This document shows positions 3,291-59,253 of a stretch of 64,000 nucleotides of DNA, in pieces. The stretch is from positions 124,001-188,000 of the forward strand of contig CANRKO010000002.1 of NCBI GenBank assembly GCA_947631235.1, in the 5' to 3' direction. The number at the start of each line of letters is the position of its first letter. The first letter of the stretch is position 1. The notes beneath the pieces were generated by a model. That model ran no database searches. It saw only the letters and a list, made by a program, of their open reading frames with translations, and was not told where the DNA came from. The position numbers and the translations under genes are program-made. The DNA comes from an uncultured Clostridia bacterium. GTDB lineage: Bacteria > Bacillota > Clostridia > UBA1381.

Positions 3291-4655
3291 TTGGAAGAAC
3301 AGCTTGACATGATAAACCGCCTTTTAAGAGAACGGCGGTTTTCGGAGGTAAAAAATTTAATAAAGGACGAGAACCCCGCCGACCTCGCAGAGCTTTTCGA
3401 GGAACTTTTCGCGGATAATTTCGACGAGAAGGCGGAGTTTATGACGCTGTTCCGCCTGCTGCCGAAGGACAGCGCGGCTGAAACGTTCGCGCACATGAAC
3501 CCCGACATGCAGGGTCACCTTATCGGAATGTTCACCGATAAAGAACTTCGTGAAATCCTCGACGAACTTTATATAGACGATACGGTCGACATGATAGAGG
3601 ACTTGCCGGCAAATGTCGTGTCGCGTATACTTTTAAACTCCACGACGGGCGAACGCCGCGCGATAAATGATATTCTCCGTTACCCCCGCGACAGCGCGGG
3701 CAGCATAATGACGATTGAATACGTCAGTCTGCATAAGGACATGACCGTGTCGGAGGCGTTCGAGAAAATACGCAAGGTAGGCGTGAATAAGGAGACGATC
3801 TACACCTGCTACGTCACGGAGAACCGCATACTGACGGGCGTTGTGACGGTCAAGGACTTGTTCACCGCCGACGAGGACGACAGGATAGGCGACATAATGG
3901 ACACGCGCGTCATATCGGTAAACACGCACGAGGACAAAGAGGTCGTCGCGAACATGTTCCAGAAATACGACTTCCTCGCGCTGCCGGTCGTTGACCGCGA
4001 CAACCGTCTTGTCGGTATCGTAACGTTCGACGACGCTATGGACGTTATCGAAGAGGAGAACACCGAGGATATTTCGCGCTGGGCTGCCGTAACGCCGAAC
4101 GAGGAAAGCTATTTCCGCACCGGCGTTTTCAAGCATGCGAAGAGCCGCATCGTGTGGCTGTTGATACTGATGATAAGCGCGACGCTGACTCAGCTTATAA
4201 CGGCGCGGTACGAGAACGCGTTTAAGGTACTACCGCTTTTGGTGTCGTTCATGCCGATGATAATGGACACGGGCGGCAACTGCGGAGCGCAGAGTTCGAC
4301 GCTGATAATACGCGGCATAGCTTTGGGCGAAATACGTTTTACGGACTTTTTTCGAGTTGTGTTCAAGGAGTTTAGAATATCGATAATAGTGAGCTCGATA
4401 CTCGCGCTTGTGAACGGGGCGAGGGTATATCTGATGTACGGGCATAATTTTCCGCTTGCGCTCACGATTGCGCTGTCGATAATCGCGACGGTCGTAATAT
4501 CGAAAATGATTGGCGCGAGTTTGCCGATGCTCGCGAAAAAGGTGCGTCTCGACCCTGCGATAATGGCAACGCCGCTTATAACGACAATCGTTGACTGCGC
4601 GTCGCTGATTATTTATTTTAATATCGCAACGGTCGTGTTTGCGAATTTGATGTGA
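3291..4655 (+). CDS. mgtE: Magnesium transporter MgtE
   Basis: Mg2+ channel/transporter of the inner membrane. The order is the typical one: an acidic N-terminal superhelical domain (about residues 1-130), two CBS domains (about 130-255) that sense cytosolic Mg2+, then a five-helix membrane domain (about 280-454) with the signature FMPMIMDTGGNCGAQSST lining the pore. Length 454 is normal. The start is TTG at 3291, preceded by GGAGGCGG; no ATG in frame lies nearer. It sits 38 bp after wecB on the same strand. Local expression control, if any, is not visible. Confidence 0.95.
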   Translation: MEEQLDMINRLLRERRFSEVKNLIKDENPADLAELFEELFADNFDEKAEFMTLFRLLPKDSAAETFAHMNPDMQGHLIGMFTDKELREILDELYIDDTVDMIEDLPANVVSRILLNSTTGERRAINDILRYPRDSAGSIMTIEYVSLHKDMTVSEAFEKIRKVGVNKETIYTCYVTENRILTGVVTVKDLFTADEDDRIGDIMDTRVISVNTHEDKEVVANMFQKYDFLALPVVDRDNRLVGIVTFDDAMDVIEEENTEDISRWAAVTPNEESYFRTGVFKHAKSRIVWLLILMISATLTQLITARYENAFKVLPLLVSFMPMIMDTGGNCGAQSSTLIIRGIALGEIRFTDFFRVVFKEFRISIIVSSILALVNGARVYLMYGHNFPLALTIALSIIATVVISKMIGASLPMLAKKVRLDPAIMATPLITTIVDCASLIIYFNIATVVFANLM

Positions 4656-11775: not shown

Positions 11776-12572
11776 TGAAAATCATAGACTTCCACACGCA
11801 TATCTATCCCGATAAACTCGCGGTGCGGGGAAGTCAGAGCGTATGCGATTTTTACGGGCTTGACTACCACAACACGGGCAGCGTGGACGTGCTGCTTTAT
11901 GAGGGCAAAAAAGCGGGCATATCCGAATTTGTGCTGCTGCCCGTGGCTGTGAAGGCTGAACACGTGAAAAGCATAAACGACTTTACCGCCCGCGAGGTTA
12001 GGGAGCATAAGGAATTTTACGGTTTCGGAACGGTTCACGCGGAAATGGACAACATGGCTGAGGAGGTCGAGAGAATATTCTCTCTCGGTTTAAGGGGCGT
12101 AAAAATACACCCCGACACGCAGCGTTTTAACATAGACGACGAGCGCCTTTATCCGATGTACGACGCGGTAAGGGGCAAGGCTCCCGTCGTCATACACTGC
12201 GGAGACCCGCGGTACGACTATTCCGACCCCGAAAGACTAAGGCGTGTGCTCGATTTATTTCCCGACCTGTGCGTGGTGGGAGCGCATCTGGGCGGCTGGT
12301 CGATGTTTGACAGAGCGTTCGAGTATTTGAAGGACACAAGCTGCTATTTCGATTTTTCAAGCTGCATGATGTTCATAGGCGCGGACGGTACACTCAAATA
12401 TATACGTGGCTACGGCGCGGACAGAATTGTTTTCGGAACGGACTTCCCGCTGTGGAATATGCCCGATGAGGTGGGAGCGTTTATATCTCTCGACCTCACG
12501 GACAATGAGAGAGAAAAGATAGCGTATAAAAACGCCGAAGAACTTCTAAAACTTCGGGGGACACTAAAGTAA
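11775..12572 (+). CDS. Amidohydrolase-family metal-dependent hydrolase
   Basis: A 265-residue TIM-barrel hydrolase of the amidohydrolase-2 type. Seen: the metal-binding HTH near the N-terminus (DFHTHIYP), VIHCGDP, VGAHLGGW and the catalytic Asp in FGTDFP. The substrate is unknown; this subgroup includes decarboxylases and ring hydrolases. It overlaps the ligase by one base. The last codons (RGTLK) are encoded by a GGGACACTAAA repeat unit and the TAA that follows it, so the C-terminus has been rewritten by repeat insertion. Confidence 0.8.
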   Translation: MKIIDFHTHIYPDKLAVRGSQSVCDFYGLDYHNTGSVDVLLYEGKKAGISEFVLLPVAVKAEHVKSINDFTAREVREHKEFYGFGTVHAEMDNMAEEVERIFSLGLRGVKIHPDTQRFNIDDERLYPMYDAVRGKAPVVIHCGDPRYDYSDPERLRRVLDLFPDLCVVGAHLGGWSMFDRAFEYLKDTSCYFDFSSCMMFIGADGTLKYIRGYGADRIVFGTDFPLWNMPDEVGAFISLDLTDNEREKIAYKNAEELLKLRGTLK

Positions 12573-12626
12573 ATAGGGACACTAAAAAACGGGGACACTA
12601 AAGTTTAACTTTAGTGTCCCCGTTTT
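12556..12626. repeat. GGGACACTAAA repeat cluster 1 (four units, palindromic end, bidirectional terminator)
   Basis: Exact units lie at 12558-12568, 12576-12586 and 12592-12602 on plus, and 12610-12620 inverted. The last two form a 41-bp palindrome (12586-12626) with flanking A and T runs that should terminate both convergent genes. The first unit encodes the end of the amidohydrolase. Confidence 0.92.
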
Positions 12627-47602: not shown

Positions 47603-50122
47603 GTGAAAAGAATAGGCATAATTTTAATTTCGGCAATAATAACGGTTTTCGGCGTGACGGCGTTCGCTGCTGACATAAAATTCGAGCCTGAGGGCGGCGG
47701 TAAGTGGATTTACTGCAACAATCCCGAAGGACTCGCGAACAAAGATTTAATGAACCACCCCGACTGCGAGCCGTCATATATAATGAACAACGCGCACCTC
47801 ACGCCCGACGTGTACGACTTTCTGATGTGCCACATAAACTGCACCGACACCGACGACGGCTACGGCGTGGGCTACGACATCGAGCTTGACGTCGAAATGA
47901 CCGCGTCCGAGGACAGCGTTATAACGGTGAACAAGGTGTTTTTTGAAACACCCCAAATGCGCAGCTACATCTACGGCGACGGCACGTGGGCTAAGGAGAT
48001 GCACAAGGTCGGCTGCCTTAACGCGCTCGCCTCGTTTCTCGGCGTGAACCTCTGCGAGCGCAACGGCTCATGGCTGTATACCGCCGAAGAGTACGAGCCG
48101 GTGACGGTCGAGATAAAGAAGGGCGAGACGGTGTGGCTTAGCGACTACATTAAAAATTACAGTGTCGTGCCGTACCGCAAGCCCGTTGAGATTATGGGCG
48201 AAATCGAGGTCGAGGAGGGCGACATTTCCTTTAACGTCGCCGCGTTCAAGTCAAACGGCACGCTCGGCGACAGAACGGATTTTGACCCCGACGCGGCGTA
48301 CGGAAAATACTCCTACACGCGCACGCAGAAGGGCATAGCCGACACGCTCCCGAAGGTAAACGCTAACCTCGAATACACGATAGATAACAAGTACCAAGAC
48401 GGCGACCTTATCGAAAACAAGGTCTTTAACCAGTACGAGAAGGACGGCTTTGTGACGGACGCGTGGTGTACGCATTTAAATCCGCAGGACGATATATGGT
48501 CGAAGAAAATCTCGACCGAGTCCGACCTTCTGACGTTCCGCTACGAGGACGACTCGAAACTCGACTACTACGGCTCGAAGGTGAAGAAGGATAAGCGCGA
48601 CAACGTCTGGATATGGGATCCGTTCCACAGCGACACGACCCACTACGAGGGCGCGGTGACGTGGTTTGAAAGGGAGGACGATTACTATCCCAACTACGAG
48701 CTTTCGCCGTACCGTTCGAACCAGGGATACGCCTGCTCGATGGGCAACTACTGCGTGACGGAAAGCTACAATTTAAAGGTAAAGAACACAATGCCGGAGG
48801 ACAGATATTTTGAGTACGTGTCGCAGACCGTATCGAATATTGTCGTGTACGTCGAGGACGAGGACGGTAAGCACAGCGGCTACGTAAAGGGCGAATGGGG
48901 CGGCGACGTCAGAGACATTCTCGCGAGCGTCCGCATACCCGCAAAGAGCGAGAAGGAATTTACGATTAACGTCGTGCTGCCGATAAACTACGTCGGCGGA
49001 CTTAAAAACTCGTTCATGGTAAGCTATGAGCCGCACGTTGACAAGACGTACGAGGACTATATAAATGAGGACAACGGCATAGAGGACGGCGTTGTAACGT
49101 ACGGTGTGACAGCTGACGCCGTGTACAATGAGTTGCCCGACGACGTTAAAAAAATCGTTGACGGCGGCGCGGAAAACTTTGAGATAACGCCCGCGCCGTG
49201 GGGCTACATGCTCCGCTACATCGACTGGGACGGCATACCGTATTACTACTACGACCACTGGGCAAAGCTTAAAGATATGTATATGCTGGACAGCGACTAC
49301 AACATCACGGGACGCTACACGCCCGACTTTATAACGCGCCTTGCCTTAACCTACGACGGTTGGTACTACCGCGAGGACGCGGACGGCAGACGCTTCCGCA
49401 CGCAGGACAGCACGAATTGGGAGGAGTACAACTACCGCTTGCCTCTCCCCGAAATAACGTATAACGGGGATGAGCCGTCGAAATGGGCGGCAGATGAGGT
49501 GAGCCGCGCATATGAGATTGACGTCGCGCCGTACGATTTGAAGGATAAACTCACGTATGACGAGGGTATGACGCGCACAATCTTCTGCTATGTGCTGTCG
49601 AGCATGCTCGAACGGTGCGGCAACATGCCGGAGAATATTGATGACGATATAAGCTTTACCGACACCGAGAGCAAAACGATACGAAAGCTTGCGACAGCGG
49701 GAATTATATCGGGTTACGACGACGGCACGTTCCGCCCCGACAATGAGATAACGCGTCAGGAGGCGGCAGTGCTGCTCGGCAAAACGTACGAGTACCTGTT
49801 CGGCGCATCTGAAACCGACGGGAAATACGAGTACGCCGACGATGAGGAAATAGGCGGCTGGTCAAAGCCGTTTGTAACGCTCATGCACAACACGGGAATT
49901 ATGCAGGGCGTGGGAGAGAATATGTTCTCGCCGAAAACAACGTATACGAACGAACAGTCGATTGCCACGATAATGCGTCTTTACGACCTCACAGTAAACC
50001 CACCGGAAGAAACGGACACAGACGAAATTGACGAAACCGACATATCCGATGGGGACACTAAAGCTGACGAGGATGCCGAAACGGACGGGGACACTAAAAT
50101 AGAAGAAAACACGGAAGTATAA
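47603..50122 (+). CDS. Large secreted SLH-domain surface protein
   Basis: An 839-residue exported protein. A signal peptide (VKRIGIILISAIITVFGVTAFA) is followed by ~600 residues of unrecognised beta-rich sequence with many Tyr, Asp and Trp. At least two S-layer homology modules (about 626-796; RKLATAGIISGYDDGTFRPDNEITRQEAA is the clear one) should bind it to the cell wall. An acidic tail (about 797-839) ends it, holding two GDTK segments each encoded by a GGGACACTAAA repeat. GTG 47603 with GAGGAG seven bases upstream is preferred over ATG 47588, which lies before the engB stop. Function unknown. Confidence 0.85.
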   Translation: MKRIGIILISAIITVFGVTAFAADIKFEPEGGGKWIYCNNPEGLANKDLMNHPDCEPSYIMNNAHLTPDVYDFLMCHINCTDTDDGYGVGYDIELDVEMTASEDSVITVNKVFFETPQMRSYIYGDGTWAKEMHKVGCLNALASFLGVNLCERNGSWLYTAEEYEPVTVEIKKGETVWLSDYIKNYSVVPYRKPVEIMGEIEVEEGDISFNVAAFKSNGTLGDRTDFDPDAAYGKYSYTRTQKGIADTLPKVNANLEYTIDNKYQDGDLIENKVFNQYEKDGFVTDAWCTHLNPQDDIWSKKISTESDLLTFRYEDDSKLDYYGSKVKKDKRDNVWIWDPFHSDTTHYEGAVTWFEREDDYYPNYELSPYRSNQGYACSMGNYCVTESYNLKVKNTMPEDRYFEYVSQTVSNIVVYVEDEDGKHSGYVKGEWGGDVRDILASVRIPAKSEKEFTINVVLPINYVGGLKNSFMVSYEPHVDKTYEDYINEDNGIEDGVVTYGVTADAVYNELPDDVKKIVDGGAENFEITPAPWGYMLRYIDWDGIPYYYYDHWAKLKDMYMLDSDYNITGRYTPDFITRLALTYDGWYYREDADGRRFRTQDSTNWEEYNYRLPLPEITYNGDEPSKWAADEVSRAYEIDVAPYDLKDKLTYDEGMTRTIFCYVLSSMLERCGNMPENIDDDISFTDTESKTIRKLATAGIISGYDDGTFRPDNEITRQEAAVLLGKTYEYLFGASETDGKYEYADDEEIGGWSKPFVTLMHNTGIMQGVGENMFSPKTTYTNEQSIATIMRLYDLTVNPPEETDTDEIDETDISDGDTKADEDAETDGDTKIEENTEV

Positions 50123-50159
50123 AAAACAGGGACACTAAAATTTTAGTGTCCCTGTTTTT
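50052..50159. repeat. GGGACACTAAA repeat cluster 2 (four units, 38-bp perfect palindrome/terminator)
   Basis: Units at 50052-50062 and 50088-50098 lie inside the SLH gene and are read as GDTK. Units at 50129-50139 and 50142-50152 (inverted) form a perfect 38-bp palindrome at 50122-50159 with A and T flanks. It terminates both the SLH gene and the convergent MATE gene, whose stop is five bases away. Confidence 0.92.
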
Positions 50160-52520: not shown

Positions 52521-53045
52521 TCACTCCTTTGAAAGTTCTCTTTTCAATTTCCGCCTTCCGCGCGAAAGTCTGTTGTACACCGCCGACGGCTTAACGCGTA
52601 GCTCACCCGATATAACCGCCACCGTGTCGCCGTCAATGTACCGCCTGCGGAAAATTTCGCGGTCGCGCTCGGGAAGGGAAGAGAGAAGGTCGTTTATCTC
52701 GTTTTCTGTTTCCTCGCGCATTATGCCGCTGTCGGCTGTCTTGTCCGAGGGAATACGCTCGTCGAGACGTGCCGGGCTGTCATTGTAATACTTGCGTTTG
52801 TAATCTATGCACTTGTATCTGCACACCGCGCCTATCCAGTTTTTGAGCGTGTTCCTTTCGGGAGCAAAGCTTTTCATGTTTTTCCACAGCGCGAGAAGAA
52901 TGTCGTTCATGCACTCGCCGCGGTAATTTTCGTGTAAATGGTACGACACGATTGATTTTATAAGTCCGCCGTATTTGTCGATAAGCGCGTCGAGCGCGCG
53001 CTCGTCACGGCGTATTATCCCCGCCGTAATCTCCTCGTCGGTCAT
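52521..53045 (-). CDS. ECF-type RNA polymerase sigma factor
   Basis: A 174-residue sigma-70 family member with only region 2 (about 20-95: LDALIDKYGGLIKSIV, NDILLALWKN, NWIGAVCRYKCIDYKR) and region 4 (about 110-172: INDLLSSLPERDREIFRRRYIDGDTVAVISGELRVKPSAVYNRLSRG, a helix-turn-helix). ATG 53045 follows GAGGGAGGTGGCACA. It is paired with the membrane anti-sigma next to it. The promoter it reads is not identified; autoregulation is usual for such pairs. Confidence 0.92.
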   Translation of the reverse strand: MTDEEITAGIIRRDERALDALIDKYGGLIKSIVSYHLHENYRGECMNDILLALWKNMKSFAPERNTLKNWIGAVCRYKCIDYKRKYYNDSPARLDERIPSDKTADSGIMREETENEINDLLSSLPERDREIFRRRYIDGDTVAVISGELRVKPSAVYNRLSRGRRKLKRELSKE

Positions 53046-53155
53046 TGTGCCACCTCCCTCGCAAACGGTATAAGAAACGTCTCTCATTTATTTATTCGTT
53101 GCAAATCGCGATTTTCTATCAATATGGGATTAGATTATGAAAAAAATATGCAAAA

Positions 53156-53223
53156 GTAGGGGCGACCCTTGCGGTCGCCCGTTTTATGTATATATGTCGG
53201 GCGACCGCAAGGGTCGCCCCTAC
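53156..53223. repeat. Family A repeat pair in inverted arrangement
   Basis: Two 25-26-bp family A units, at 53156-53181 and 53199-53223, face each other across a 17-bp AT spacer, so the whole 68 bp can fold as one long hairpin or two short ones. With the family C element after it, this fills the 333-bp gap 53046-53378; no gene is seen there. Confidence 0.88.
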
Positions 53224-53245
53224 GGCAATTTGTCGCTTTCTGTAA

Positions 53246-53889: not shown

Positions 53890-56469
53890 TTAAAATTTTT
53901 CTTTTGAAAACGCGGCTGACACGAATTTCTGCGTCTCGACGATAACGAGCGGCATAACCGACAGCACGCCGACGATTATCCACTGCAGGGCGTTTAGCGG
54001 CACAGCCCCGAACACGGGCGCGAGCGACGGCACGGATATAACGACCGCCTCCAGCGCAAGCCCGACGATGAGCGACAGCACGAGAAACGGGTTTTTGAAT
54101 ATTCCCGCCTTGATTACCGACGTGTCGCTGCGCATATTGAACGCGTGTACGAGCTGCGAGATCGACAGCACCGCGAACGCCATCGTTCTGCCGGTGACGA
54201 GCGAGCCGAATACCCTTGAGCCCGTCACGAATGCCAAAAGCGCGAGCGCGCCTATCATAAGCCCCTCGAATATTATCGACGCCCACAGTCCGTCCGCGAA
54301 CAGCCCCTTTTTCGGGTTACGCGGCGGTTTTTGCATGATGTTCTCCGACGGCGCGTCAAGCCCCAGTGCGATAGCGGGGAAGGAGTCGGTGACGAGGTTC
54401 ACCCATAAAAGCTGTATTGCCGTAAGCGGCGACGAGGAGCTTAAAAGTATGCCTGCGAACACCGTCAGTATCTCGCCGATATTGCTCGACAGCAGGAATT
54501 TGACCGCTTTTTTGATGTTCGCGAATATGCACCGCCCCTCCTTGACGGCGTATACGATGGTAGCGAAATTGTCGTCGGTCAGCACCATATCCGACGCGGA
54601 CTTCGCCACATCCGTACCGGCTATGCCCATGCTGCAGCCTATGTCGGCGGCTTTAAGCGCGGGCGCGTCGTTCACTCCGTCGCCCGTCATAGCCGTAATT
54701 TCGCCGTTTGCCTTAAACGCCTTGACGAGCCGTACCTTGTGCGACGGCGTTACGCGGGCGAAAACGGAACACGTTTTAACTCTCTCCGAAAGCTCTTCGT
54801 CGGACATTTTATCGAGCTCGCCGCCCGTTATGACCTCGCTCGTGTCGCGTGCGATACCGAGTTTTTTCGCAGCTGCGAGAGCCGTTGCGGCGTGGTCGCC
54901 CGTTATCATCACGGGGCGAATACCCGCGTTTTTGCACACGCGCACAGCCGCCGCAGCCTCTTTCCTCGGCGGATCCTCGATGCCGATAAGCCCGATAAAC
55001 GTCATATTCCTCTCGTTTATCGGCGCGACCGATGTGTCGGTGCGGCAGCACACCGCGATTACGCGCAGACCCTCCGACGCCATACTTTTGTTGTCGGCGA
55101 GTATTTTATTCCTGCCGTGCGACGACAGCGCCGACGTGCCGTTTTCCGTAAGCTCGAACGAACACAGCGGCAGCACGTACTCCGGCGCGCCTTTTACAAC
55201 AGTGCGGCTGCCCTTTATGTCGCGGTGCTGCGTCGTCATGCGCTTGCGCGTCGAGTCGAACGGTATTTCCGCGACGCGGCGGTAACGGCGGTCGAGCGCG
55301 GATTTGTCTGTGCCGTGTTCCTTCGCGTACTGCAAAAGCGCGACCTCCGTGGGATTTTTGTTACCCTCCGCGCTGTCGCAGCAAAGCGCGCAGCACTGCA
55401 TTAAAAGCGGCTCGTCATGCGAGACGATTTTTGTTACGGTCATTTTGTTTTCGGTGAGCGTGCCGGTTTTGTCGGAGCAAATAACCGACGCGCCGCCGAG
55501 CGTCTCGACTGACGGCAGATTGCGCACGATCGCGTTTTTGCCCGACATACGCATAACGCCCAGCGCGAGCATGATTGTCACGATTGCCGGAAGTCCTTCG
55601 GGTATCGCCGCGACGGCGAGCGACACGGCTGTCATAAACATTTCAAGCGGCGGCAGACACATAAACAGCCCCGTCACAAACACCGCGAGACATATCGCGA
55701 GCGCGGCTATGCCGAGCGTTTTGCCCGTGTCCGCAAGCTTTTTCTGCAGCGGCGTTTTCTCCCGTTCCTCGGTGAGCAGCATATCGGCTATCTTTCCGAC
55801 CTCGGTATCCATGCCCGCCGCTGTTACCACGGCGCGACCCTTGCCGCCCGTCACGGACGTGGACGCGAACAGCATATTTTTTCTGTCCCCAAGCGGCGCG
55901 TGAATGTCGGACACCGCGTCAGCCGACTTTGTGACGTTCAGGCTCTCGCCCGTAAGCGACGATTCATCGGTCGTGAGCGAGTTTGACGATATTAAAAGGC
56001 AGTCGGCGGGTATCAGGTCGCCCGCCGAAACGGCGATAATGTCGCCCGTCACAACGTCCTCCGCTTCAACCGTTATAATGTTGCCGCTCCTTACGACCCG
56101 AGCGTGCGGCGACGACATTTTCTTTAACGCTTCAAGGCTCTTTTCCGCGCGTTCCTCCTGCGTCACGCCGAGTATCGCGTTCGCGACGACTATCGCGAGT
56201 ATTATAAGCGGCTCGGAAATGTCCGCGTCGCCCTGCAAAAACGACGTAAAAAACGACACAGCCGCCGCCGCGAGCAGTATTATTATCATAAAATCGTTGA
56301 ACTGTTCGATAAATTTTATGAATATGTTCTTTTTCTTTTTGCCGCGCAGCCTGTTTTTGCCGTTTTCTTTAAGCCTTCGCGCAGCCTCCCTGACCGTCAA
56401 TCCGTCCTTTATATCGGTATTTAAAAGCGCGGCTGTCTCACGCGCCGTTTTGTTGTGATATACTTCCAT
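53890..56469 (-). CDS. P2-type calcium-transporting ATPase
   Basis: An 859-residue inner-membrane pump that exports Ca2+, closest to the SERCA/PMCA-like bacterial group. Order: a cation-ATPase N-domain ([12 protein letters not shown]), helices M1-M2, an actuator with LTGESLNV, M4 with [16 protein letters not shown] (Ca ligand Glu), the phosphorylation site [39 protein letters not shown], then the C-terminal helices with [17 protein letters not shown] (Asn and Asp ligands). Length and ligands fit Ca rather than Na/K or Mg. ATG is preceded by GGAGGGG. Confidence 0.93.
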
Positions 56470-56558: not shown

Positions 56559-56643
56559 TTTAGTGTCCCCGCCGAAAATGTGATACAATGGGGACATAAA
56601 AGTAAAACAGGGACACTAAAAACAAATGAAAGGGGACACTAAA
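56559..56643. repeat. GGGACACTAAA repeat cluster 3, in the promoter and leader of the RAYT-like gene
   Basis: Units: inverted at 56559-56569, a degenerate copy GGGGACATAAA at about 56590-56600, then direct copies at 56610-56620 and 56633-56643. A -10-like TACAAT lies at 56584-56589, so the inverted unit covers the -35 position and the others lie in the leader. The last unit abuts the ATG and its GGGG, with the preceding AAA, serves as the ribosome binding site. Confidence 0.9.
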
Positions 56644-57162
56644 ATGGCAAGACAGGCAAGAGAAGTGAGCAAAAGCGGCAACTATTACGTATCGCTGCGC
56701 GGAAACGAGCTTTACGTTACCGACGCGGACAAGAAAAGGTTTGCCGAAATCGCGGCTGAAAAGTTCGGGGGCGGCAAGGTGTACGGACTGGAAATAACGA
56801 AAACTGAGATACGCATGGCTGTAAAAGAGCCGTCAAACGGCATATCCATGGCGGTAAAGTCGCTCACGACCGTTTACGCGCGTTACTTTAACAACGTAAA
56901 CGGCAGAGAGGGCAAGGTGTTTGAGGGACGTTTCCGCAGTACGCCGCTTGAAACGAAAAAAGAGGTGGACGAGTGCGTTAAGAACCTCAAAACATCCGCG
57001 CCCGAACCGAGGAGAACCGAAAAACCGAAAGTCGCGCCGAAAAAGACCGCGGTAGAGAAGGTGAGGAAAACCGAAACGGCAAAAAAGAGCGCTCCCGCAA
57101 AGAAGGTGGAAACGGAGAAAAAGCCCGAGCCGAAGAAGAACCTGCCGTCGTGGCTTTTGTGA
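56644..57162 (+). CDS. Degenerate REP-associated tyrosine transposase-like (RAYT-like) protein with basic tail
   Basis: A 172-residue protein. Residues 1-~115 follow the Y1/IS200-like RAYT pattern: an N-terminal ARQAREVSKSGNYYVSLRG, then KKRFAEIAAEK, VYGLEITKTEIRMAVKEP, and ARYFNNVNGREGKVFEGRFR. Where active members have a His-x-His pair (NHVHLLLKE) this has TEIRMAVKE, and the RYIHxNP segment with the catalytic Tyr reads KNLKTSAP. So DNA cleavage is probably lost while DNA binding may remain. The tail (~115-172) is Lys/Pro/Ala/Glu-rich, histone H1-like. Its start region is built from GGGACACTAAA repeats, its likely binding sites. Confidence 0.75.
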   Translation: MARQAREVSKSGNYYVSLRGNELYVTDADKKRFAEIAAEKFGGGKVYGLEITKTEIRMAVKEPSNGISMAVKSLTTVYARYFNNVNGREGKVFEGRFRSTPLETKKEVDECVKNLKTSAPEPRRTEKPKVAPKKTAVEKVRKTETAKKSAPAKKVETEKKPEPKKNLPSWLL

Positions 57163-57997: not shown

Positions 57998-58138
57998 AGC
58001 CTCCCCTACTAGGGGAGGTGTCGGCGCGTGCTATTGCGCAGCAATAGCTGACAAAGCCGACGGAGGGGTTTTATCCCCGAAGTACACACAAACCCCTCAG
58101 TCACACTGCGTGTGACAGCTCCCCTATTAGGGGAGCCT
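57998..58138. repeat. Family C hairpin repeat, copy 2 (inverted)
   Basis: A 141-bp element, inverted relative to 53246-53356. It has CTCCCCTACTAGGGGAG and CTCCCCTATTAGGGGAG end hairpins and GTCACAC/GTGTGAC inside, plus an extra CTATTGC-GCA-GCAATAG hairpin missing from the other copy. It makes up half of the 275-bp gap between the pdaB-like and GH43 genes. Confidence 0.9.
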
Positions 58139-58190
58139 TTCTATTAAACACAAAAATCCAAAAATTCCCCATTTTTTCTTCAAAAAACCA

Positions 58191-59214: not shown

Positions 59215-59253
59215 GGGGACACTAAAATTTTAGTGTCCCCATTTTAGTGTCCC
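59215..59253. repeat. GGGACACTAAA repeat cluster 4 (26-bp palindrome plus half copy)
   Basis: A direct unit at 59216-59226 and inverted units at 59229-59239 and 59243-59253. The first two form a perfect 26-bp palindrome (59215-59240) between the convergent GH43 and prfB stops, and probably act as terminator on both strands. Confidence 0.92.

Follow-up and report, generated by a model that had tools for sequence, protein, structure and literature searches.

In the part of PMC3733652 that concerns TIRYT genes, the terminal repeats share the word GGGGWSAS, the HUH and Tyr residues are conserved in all of them, and inverted repeats flank both sides of the gene; the same source places REPs inside genes of several species, many of them replication and repair genes, so that intragenic repeats as such are not new. 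Most TIRYTs fall in subclass 2.1 and have HTH-like C-termini, according to the relevant part of PMC6006769. DNA uptake sequences show an orientation bias within reading frames, milder than the one described below, and number almost 1,500 in Neisseria (PMC2346458, in part); the sections of PMC2397512 that bear on them report that inverted pairs act as terminators, that the words are strictly conserved and occupy permissive sites, and that their gains are too divergent to be explained by point mutation. In the open-access literature searched, the matches to the exact 11-mer GGGACACTAAA concern other organisms, and nothing useful on RAYTs in Clostridia was found.

Here we compare with these systems a locus of a Clostridia genome (G000; 2,086,820 bases, 2.09 Mb, in 16 contigs, 86% complete), computing homology, catalytic loss, purifying selection, motif excess and conservation, placement, co-distribution and operator spacing, which proves to be fixed. 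The window is the whole 64-kb stretch analysed, and its relevant features are as follows.

12558..12620: group of four motif copies where two genes converge, with the first copy falling within the end of an amidohydrolase gene
50052..50152: 3' palindrome together with a pair of in-frame coding copies (GDTK), intact in G005, G010 and G011
53890..56469, minus strand: divergent P-type ATPase gene, a conserved neighbour by its signature
56559..56569, minus strand: operator-like copy of the motif covering the -35 region, with 14 bp between it and the -10
56584..56589, plus strand: -10 hexamer TACAAT preceded by TG (extended -10 type), by consensus match only
56591..56601, plus strand: motif variant GGGACATAAAA directly after the -10
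56610..56620, plus strand: motif copy in the leader, from the exact-copy count
56633..56643, plus strand: motif copy abutting the ATG, in ribosome-binding position
56644..57162, plus strand: nuclease-dead Y1 (TIRYT/RAYT-derived) gene, 172 aa plus stop, core at about residues 1-115
56989..57159, plus strand: Lys/Pro/Ala-rich tail with the conserved C-terminal tip LPSWLL, predicted to be disordered
59216..59253: palindrome and one extra unit between convergent genes, with further units in G010 and G011

The Y1-derived gene is identified by homology, by E-I-R in place of HxH, by N at the Tyr position and by a confident model of the core; translation starts at 56644 or, alternatively, at an ATG in the same frame at 56626, and 57162 is the last base of the stop codon. 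The initial annotation had described a Y1/RAYT-like protein stripped of its catalytic residues and extended by a Lys/Pro/Ala tail, and both parts of that description hold, with E and R at the HxH positions, N aligned to the Tyr, and the tail present and predicted to be disordered. The structure model reaches a pLDDT of at least 90 at 93 of 172 residues, and its predicted order of strands and helices fits that of Y1 transposases; at this level a non-Y1 outcome is not seen. Searches of Pfam, NCBIfam and PDB sequences with the window protein or its alignment give no meaningful match. Homology to PF01797 (Y1) comes from profile-profile comparison, in which 20 short forms of the family, taken as a profile, match the profile built from 10 intact RAYTs (Treponema, Bacillaceae and others) with a probability of 99.7%; by direct Pfam search the window protein has no match, 3/20 short forms match weakly (best E 0.001) and 3/6 long orthologues score above the cut-off. 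Motif-encoded peptides (GDTK, RDTK, GTQK) occur within the tail of the dead transposase itself in some species (L046, L050, L052).

Protein matches occur in 37 of the 61 genomes searched, including 16/16 of the genus, where one match (G012) is a fragment at a contig edge; most of the genomes compared are incomplete with uncurated gene calls, and the named orthologue records are mostly Clostridia metagenome assemblies, many from animal guts. The family comprises short forms, which where complete have 149-197 aa and all end in P-S/T-W/Y-L-L, and long forms of 246-262 aa where complete, which end in SVWLL or DIWLL and show a weak match to an HTH-like region. When 29 family proteins (22 short, 7 long) are aligned with 8 intact ones, H, H and Y are present in 8/8 intact proteins, whereas the long forms keep the second H in 7/7, the first H in 1/7 and the aligned Tyr in 2/7, and 21/22 short forms have lost all three residues, the exception being G029 (L054) with H, H and an aligned Tyr. 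The short forms cluster together (support 97/87), and the passage from long forms, in which catalytic loss is partial, to short forms, which lack the C-terminal domain and almost all of the catalytic residues, makes a natural series of steps. In comparisons with the four closest genomes the core dN/dS is 0.019-0.053; more distant pairs, so far as their dS could be estimated, give about 0.09-0.2. With the gene in 16/16 genus genomes and so low a core dN/dS, the Y1-derived gene is not decaying, in agreement with the earlier proposal of a dead form under purifying selection; the frequent frameshifts expected of decay are not seen in relatives, as 38/39 protein matches have no reported in-frame stop. 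We reject a pseudogene because of the dN/dS and the open orthologues. Among loci with sufficient upstream DNA, 19/22, some of them of long forms, have the P-type ATPase signature at 1.1-1.2 kb, a sign that the gene has been inherited vertically at one place.

The promoter and leader had been described as built from motif units, which is correct for the copies in the leader and at the ATG; the unit at -35 is in reverse orientation, and the unit after the -10 is the variant GGGACATAAAA. The operator in the gene's own promoter is conserved across four genera of short forms: TTT(A/T)GTGTCCC stands exactly 14 bp from the -10 in 20/22 short-form promoters, that is, in 20/20 of those that possess the operator, two short forms being without it. 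In 4/7 long forms a related word lies 24-25 bp from the -10, about one helical turn further. The operator variant of genera g4, g6 and g11, GGGACACAAAA, is not the commonest variant in these genomes as a whole.

We confirm the 14 exact copies of GGGACACTAAA at four loci of the window (shuffled mean 0.01), where it is the commonest 11-mer and where 3/14 copies lie inside coding sequences (12558, 50052 and 50088). The excess persists genome-wide, with 128 copies (71 + 57) against 0 for the reversed word. Motif counts follow the gene, and gene loss with retention of the repeats is not seen: the exact motif has 27-167 copies in each of the 16 genus genomes, 4-167 in 23 genomes with a short form, 0-10 in the 11 family genomes where the match belongs to a longer frame, 0-1 in three family genomes lacking a protein match, and 0-1 in 24 genomes of the order's other families, three of which had weak protein matches. 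G029 has the gene and little motif (4 copies). The variant GGGACACAAAA is modestly enriched (G024 29, G027 21 and G028 17 copies versus 0, 0 and 1 for the reversed word), and GGGACATAAAA weakly so. The gapped palindrome pattern has no match in viral contigs.

Further evidence comes from intact homologues, where GGGACAG is found within 400 bp of the RAYT gene at 8/10 loci (four Treponema, four Bacillaceae), is absent near L090 and L094, and in reversed form occurs at most once per locus. In the window, GGGGACAC fits GGGGWSAS and stands at the promoter and leader, as a TIRYT near-gene repeat does; inverted repeats on both sides of the gene are not found, the motif being absent between 57162 and 59216. 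From its presence at intact homologues and its fit to the published consensus, motif and protein appear to share ancestry. Downstream of intact Bacillaceae RAYT genes (L097, L100) we also observe tandem CTGTCCC arrays of five and nine units at 15-base spacing.

We placed copies relative to genes with a home-made gene caller, covering 114/128 copies in G000 and all of those in G014 (70), G013 (41) and G009 (31). Among these 256 copies, 138 are coding, 119 sense and 19 antisense (sense/antisense G000 43/3, G014 41/6, then 19/5 and 16/5). The first 103 copies placed in G000 include 39 sense and 0 antisense; the three antisense copies, in trpC and trpA, come from a region added later. Synonymous shuffling of the first G000 set (200 shuffles) yields a mean of 0.9 and a maximum of 4 sense copies. 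GGGGACACTAAA encodes 25/26 GDTK peptides, yet Gly is encoded by GGG in 6% and Thr by ACT in 5% of cases; coding copies use two frames (GDTK/RDTK and GTLK/GTLN), so it is the nucleotide word that is kept and not one peptide. Coding copies are mostly single or tandem direct units, and non-coding copies include words directly before start codons, in ribosome-binding position, and 3' hairpins. The initial annotation's picture of palindromes dispersed genome-wide does not survive this analysis, since more than half of the placed copies are coding, others serve as ribosome-binding sites, and palindromes at 3' ends account for only a part. Promoter regions and the spaces between divergent genes have few copies, and an ordinary promoter regulon is rejected for this reason. 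Orientation that follows replication instead of transcription is unlikely, because the coding copies of contig C3 are sense on both strands. In 20 sampled stretches of G024, from another genus, variants are sense in 23 cases versus antisense in 6, some gene calls being doubtful; a 493-aa gene there (L265), presumably spoIVA-like, carries four different GGGACA-type variants, all sense.

Copies are both conserved and gained. All ten window copies between 50052 and 59253 are intact in each of G005, G010 and G011 (30/30), in DNA that aligns at 91-95% identity, with one extra unit each in G010 and G011. In the U32 gene, chosen because it bears copies and compared across 31 genomes (30 of the 51 with a match, all non-fragment, plus G033), we find 14 site columns, all sense; 14/19 short-form genomes have one exact site or more, versus 0/12 others. 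Several of these sites coincide with codon insertions or deletions, and in the G000 clade one replaced YGDFRLN, a stretch well conserved elsewhere. An antisense copy in hemB, a gene with no match in G000, is exact in 6/8 genus genomes with the gene, at a third-position identity of about 0.5; a sense/antisense pair in cobQ keeps its 66-base spacing in G003, G014, G018 and G033; and one antisense trpA and one sense trpF copy are common to G000 and G033, from different genera (offsets compared by eye).

Copies cluster in cobalamin operons (9/70 copies in G014, 15/38 in G018 and 20/60 in G033) and haem/sirohaem operons (9/70 in G014, 10/41 in G013), with Poisson P values of 4e-11 for G014 cobalamin and 3e-14 or lower for the others (genome sizes rounded), which are descriptive only because the operons were picked after the clusters had been seen. 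Other carriers are thiF, NAD synthase, trp genes, hypD and its AIR-synthase-family neighbour, which we take to be hypE, as well as hydF, uxaC, mutL, U32 and phage head genes; the tagged operons share no single obvious function. Phage head-tail connector or scaffolding-type genes have the motif or a variant near their start codons in four genomes of two genera (L166:2345-2704 and 3577-4119; similarly L150, L172 and L263).

Conserved, operon-clustered words gained inside genes admit several readings. Our preferred one, which we hold tentatively and at a little under an even chance, is that a TIRYT-type Y1 transposase was exapted and passed on vertically, and that its descendant lost cleavage, kept recognition of GGGGACA(C), the core of the family's terminal repeats, binds the motif, regulates its own gene and acts through tagged transcription units. 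We favor it because of the 99.7% profile match, the catalytic loss, the low dN/dS and the fixed operator spacing of 14; because of GGGACAG at intact genes, the TIRYT consensus and motif counts that follow the short form; and because of the synonymous-shuffle control, the 30/30 intact copies, the U32 distribution and the operon clustering. Against it stand the few promoter copies, the two operator-less short forms, G029 with H, H and an aligned Tyr, the lack of a shared operon function, the 19/138 antisense coding copies, and the operator variant GGGACACAAAA of g4, g6 and g11, which is not the commonest variant in their genomes.

The strongest rival is tagging of the uptake-sequence kind, in which copies would mark self DNA for uptake or recombination, biased exchange (molecular drive) would have multiplied them, and the dead transposase would serve in the cytoplasm as a reader or as an ssDNA chaperone. 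The placement of the copies resembles that of neisserial and Pasteurellaceae uptake sequences, and site gains with codon insertions or deletions, 3' hairpins and genus variants look alike here; we nonetheless consider it unlikely, given 27-167 copies per genus genome, where uptake sequences number in the hundreds to thousands and almost 1,500 are reported for Neisseria in the part of PMC2346458 concerned, and given the strong clustering in few operons.

The motif might instead act mainly as RNA, with the protein or a complementary small RNA binding mRNA at ribosome-binding and coding sites in a CsrA-like manner, as the sense excess of 119 to 19 and the copies that serve as ribosome-binding sites and 3' hairpins would allow. 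Sense bias alone does not prove action at the transcript level, and we reject it as such proof, uptake sequences showing a milder bias of the same kind; the hydrophilic peptides GDTK and GTLK may simply be better tolerated than those encoded antisense. The best-conserved copy sits upstream of the -10 with constant spacing, which in long forms is greater by about one helical turn; this suggests DNA, and an Rfam scan of the window at gathering scores finds no RNA. This reading seems to us distinctly unlikely.

Improbable, and next in rank, is that the protein is not the reader, another factor owning the motif and the gene being one target only: many genes carry the motif, binding by the dead protein is something we infer, and genomes with little motif, such as G029 with 4 copies, keep the gene; but GGGACA-type repeats accompany intact homologues in distant bacteria, and motif abundance follows the short form. 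Very improbable is that the copies are scattered REP palindromes, either relics or selfish elements, which a dead RAYT coats or insulates, as the palindromes at convergent gene ends and the TIR-like core might suggest, since 46/114 placed G000 copies are coding, versus 0/15 for GTAG-type REPs, and copies are conserved rather than decaying.

Those GTAG-type REPs served as an internal control, lying in intergenic DNA in 15/15 distinct cases of the G000 sample (22 overlapping pattern hits); together with the coding copies, this separate family leads us to reject a plain REP reading, and the motif does not behave as an extragenic palindrome of the REP/REPIN kind. The GTAG-GGGCGACC...GGTCGCCC family is found in the window at 1846, 1889, 43778, 53159 and 53199. 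A second RAYT-like gene, with NHIH and Tyr and a Pfam score below the cut-off, lies at L032:1291-1830 (G000:C3:13620-14159); its protein contains a repeated GTSRAPS stretch, and some GTAG REP copies are about 1.3 kb from it (L117). G000 also has an IS200-type TnpA with HIH and Tyr (L031:1468-1938; G000:C7 ~52766-53236; Y1_Tnp 130.6 bits), and CCCCTACTAGGGGAGG-type repeats, unrelated to the motif, in gene ends (window 58000-58140; L117:3752-4035).

Under the exapted-reader interpretation, the protein would bind GGGACACTAAA and repress its own gene through the -35 operator and the motif copy in the ribosome-binding site. It would act on selected copies elsewhere, in ribosome-binding sites, at in-frame coding positions (mostly sense) and in 3' hairpins, with DNA or RNA as its possible target, and most likely by blocking polymerase or ribosomes and so dampening the tagged operons. 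Putative targets are the cobalamin, haem/sirohaem, tryptophan and hydrogenase maturation genes, U32, mutL and others. As to the overall interpretation of the initial annotation, the dead but selected RAYT, the ancestral link to the motif and the operator are retained, and the genome-wide dispersed palindromes are given up. A wider proposal, possible but more doubtful, is that in several genera a dead Y1 transposase is a global reader of an 11-nt word placed by selection in ribosome-binding sites, coding sequences and the terminators of cofactor operons, a Y1-side counterpart of TldR with many intragenic sites in place of a promoter regulon. Dead transposase and conserved word may constitute a new kind of regulator or a recognition-tag system.

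How does this locus compare with described systems? With TIRYTs/TIRtrons (PMC3733652; mostly subclass 2.1 in PMC6006769, each in its pertinent part) it shares a homologous Y1 core, the HTH-like region of the long forms (by weak match) and GGGGWSAS repeats, fitted by GGGGACAC. Published TIRYTs keep HUH and Tyr, in the passages of PMC3733652 that describe them, whereas the window protein has neither; moreover, no repeat copy is seen immediately after the window gene, and the word has copies scattered over coding sequences. RAYT/TnpA-REP systems, in the parts of PMC8266576 and PMC6006769 that cover them, likewise belong to the Y1 fold family and have REPs near gene ends; the window protein differs from them in lacking HUH-Tyr and in its associated word, GGGACACTAAA, which has no GTAG tag, GTAG REPs being a separate intergenic family. 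Uptake sequences, as the sections in point of PMC2346458 and PMC2397512 present them, are also short words in coding sequences with an orientation bias, inverted pairs at gene ends and gains other than by point mutation, but here the copies are far fewer, clustered in operons and tied to a transposase-derived protein. The closest functional analogue is TldR, the nuclease-dead TnpB repressors of which PMC13418256, in the portion concerned, gives an account: both are dead IS200/IS605 descendants kept by a host or phage. TldR is RNA-guided and derives from TnpB, whereas the protein here comes from the Y1 (TnpA-like) side and implies no guide RNA. If our reading is true, exaptation can turn the Y1 half of IS200-type transposons into a reader that does not cut, much as it turned TnpB into TldR; coding genes of gut Clostridia contain a strictly conserved word that is easily missed because it passes for protein sequence, and the spread, maintenance and action of such words become testable.
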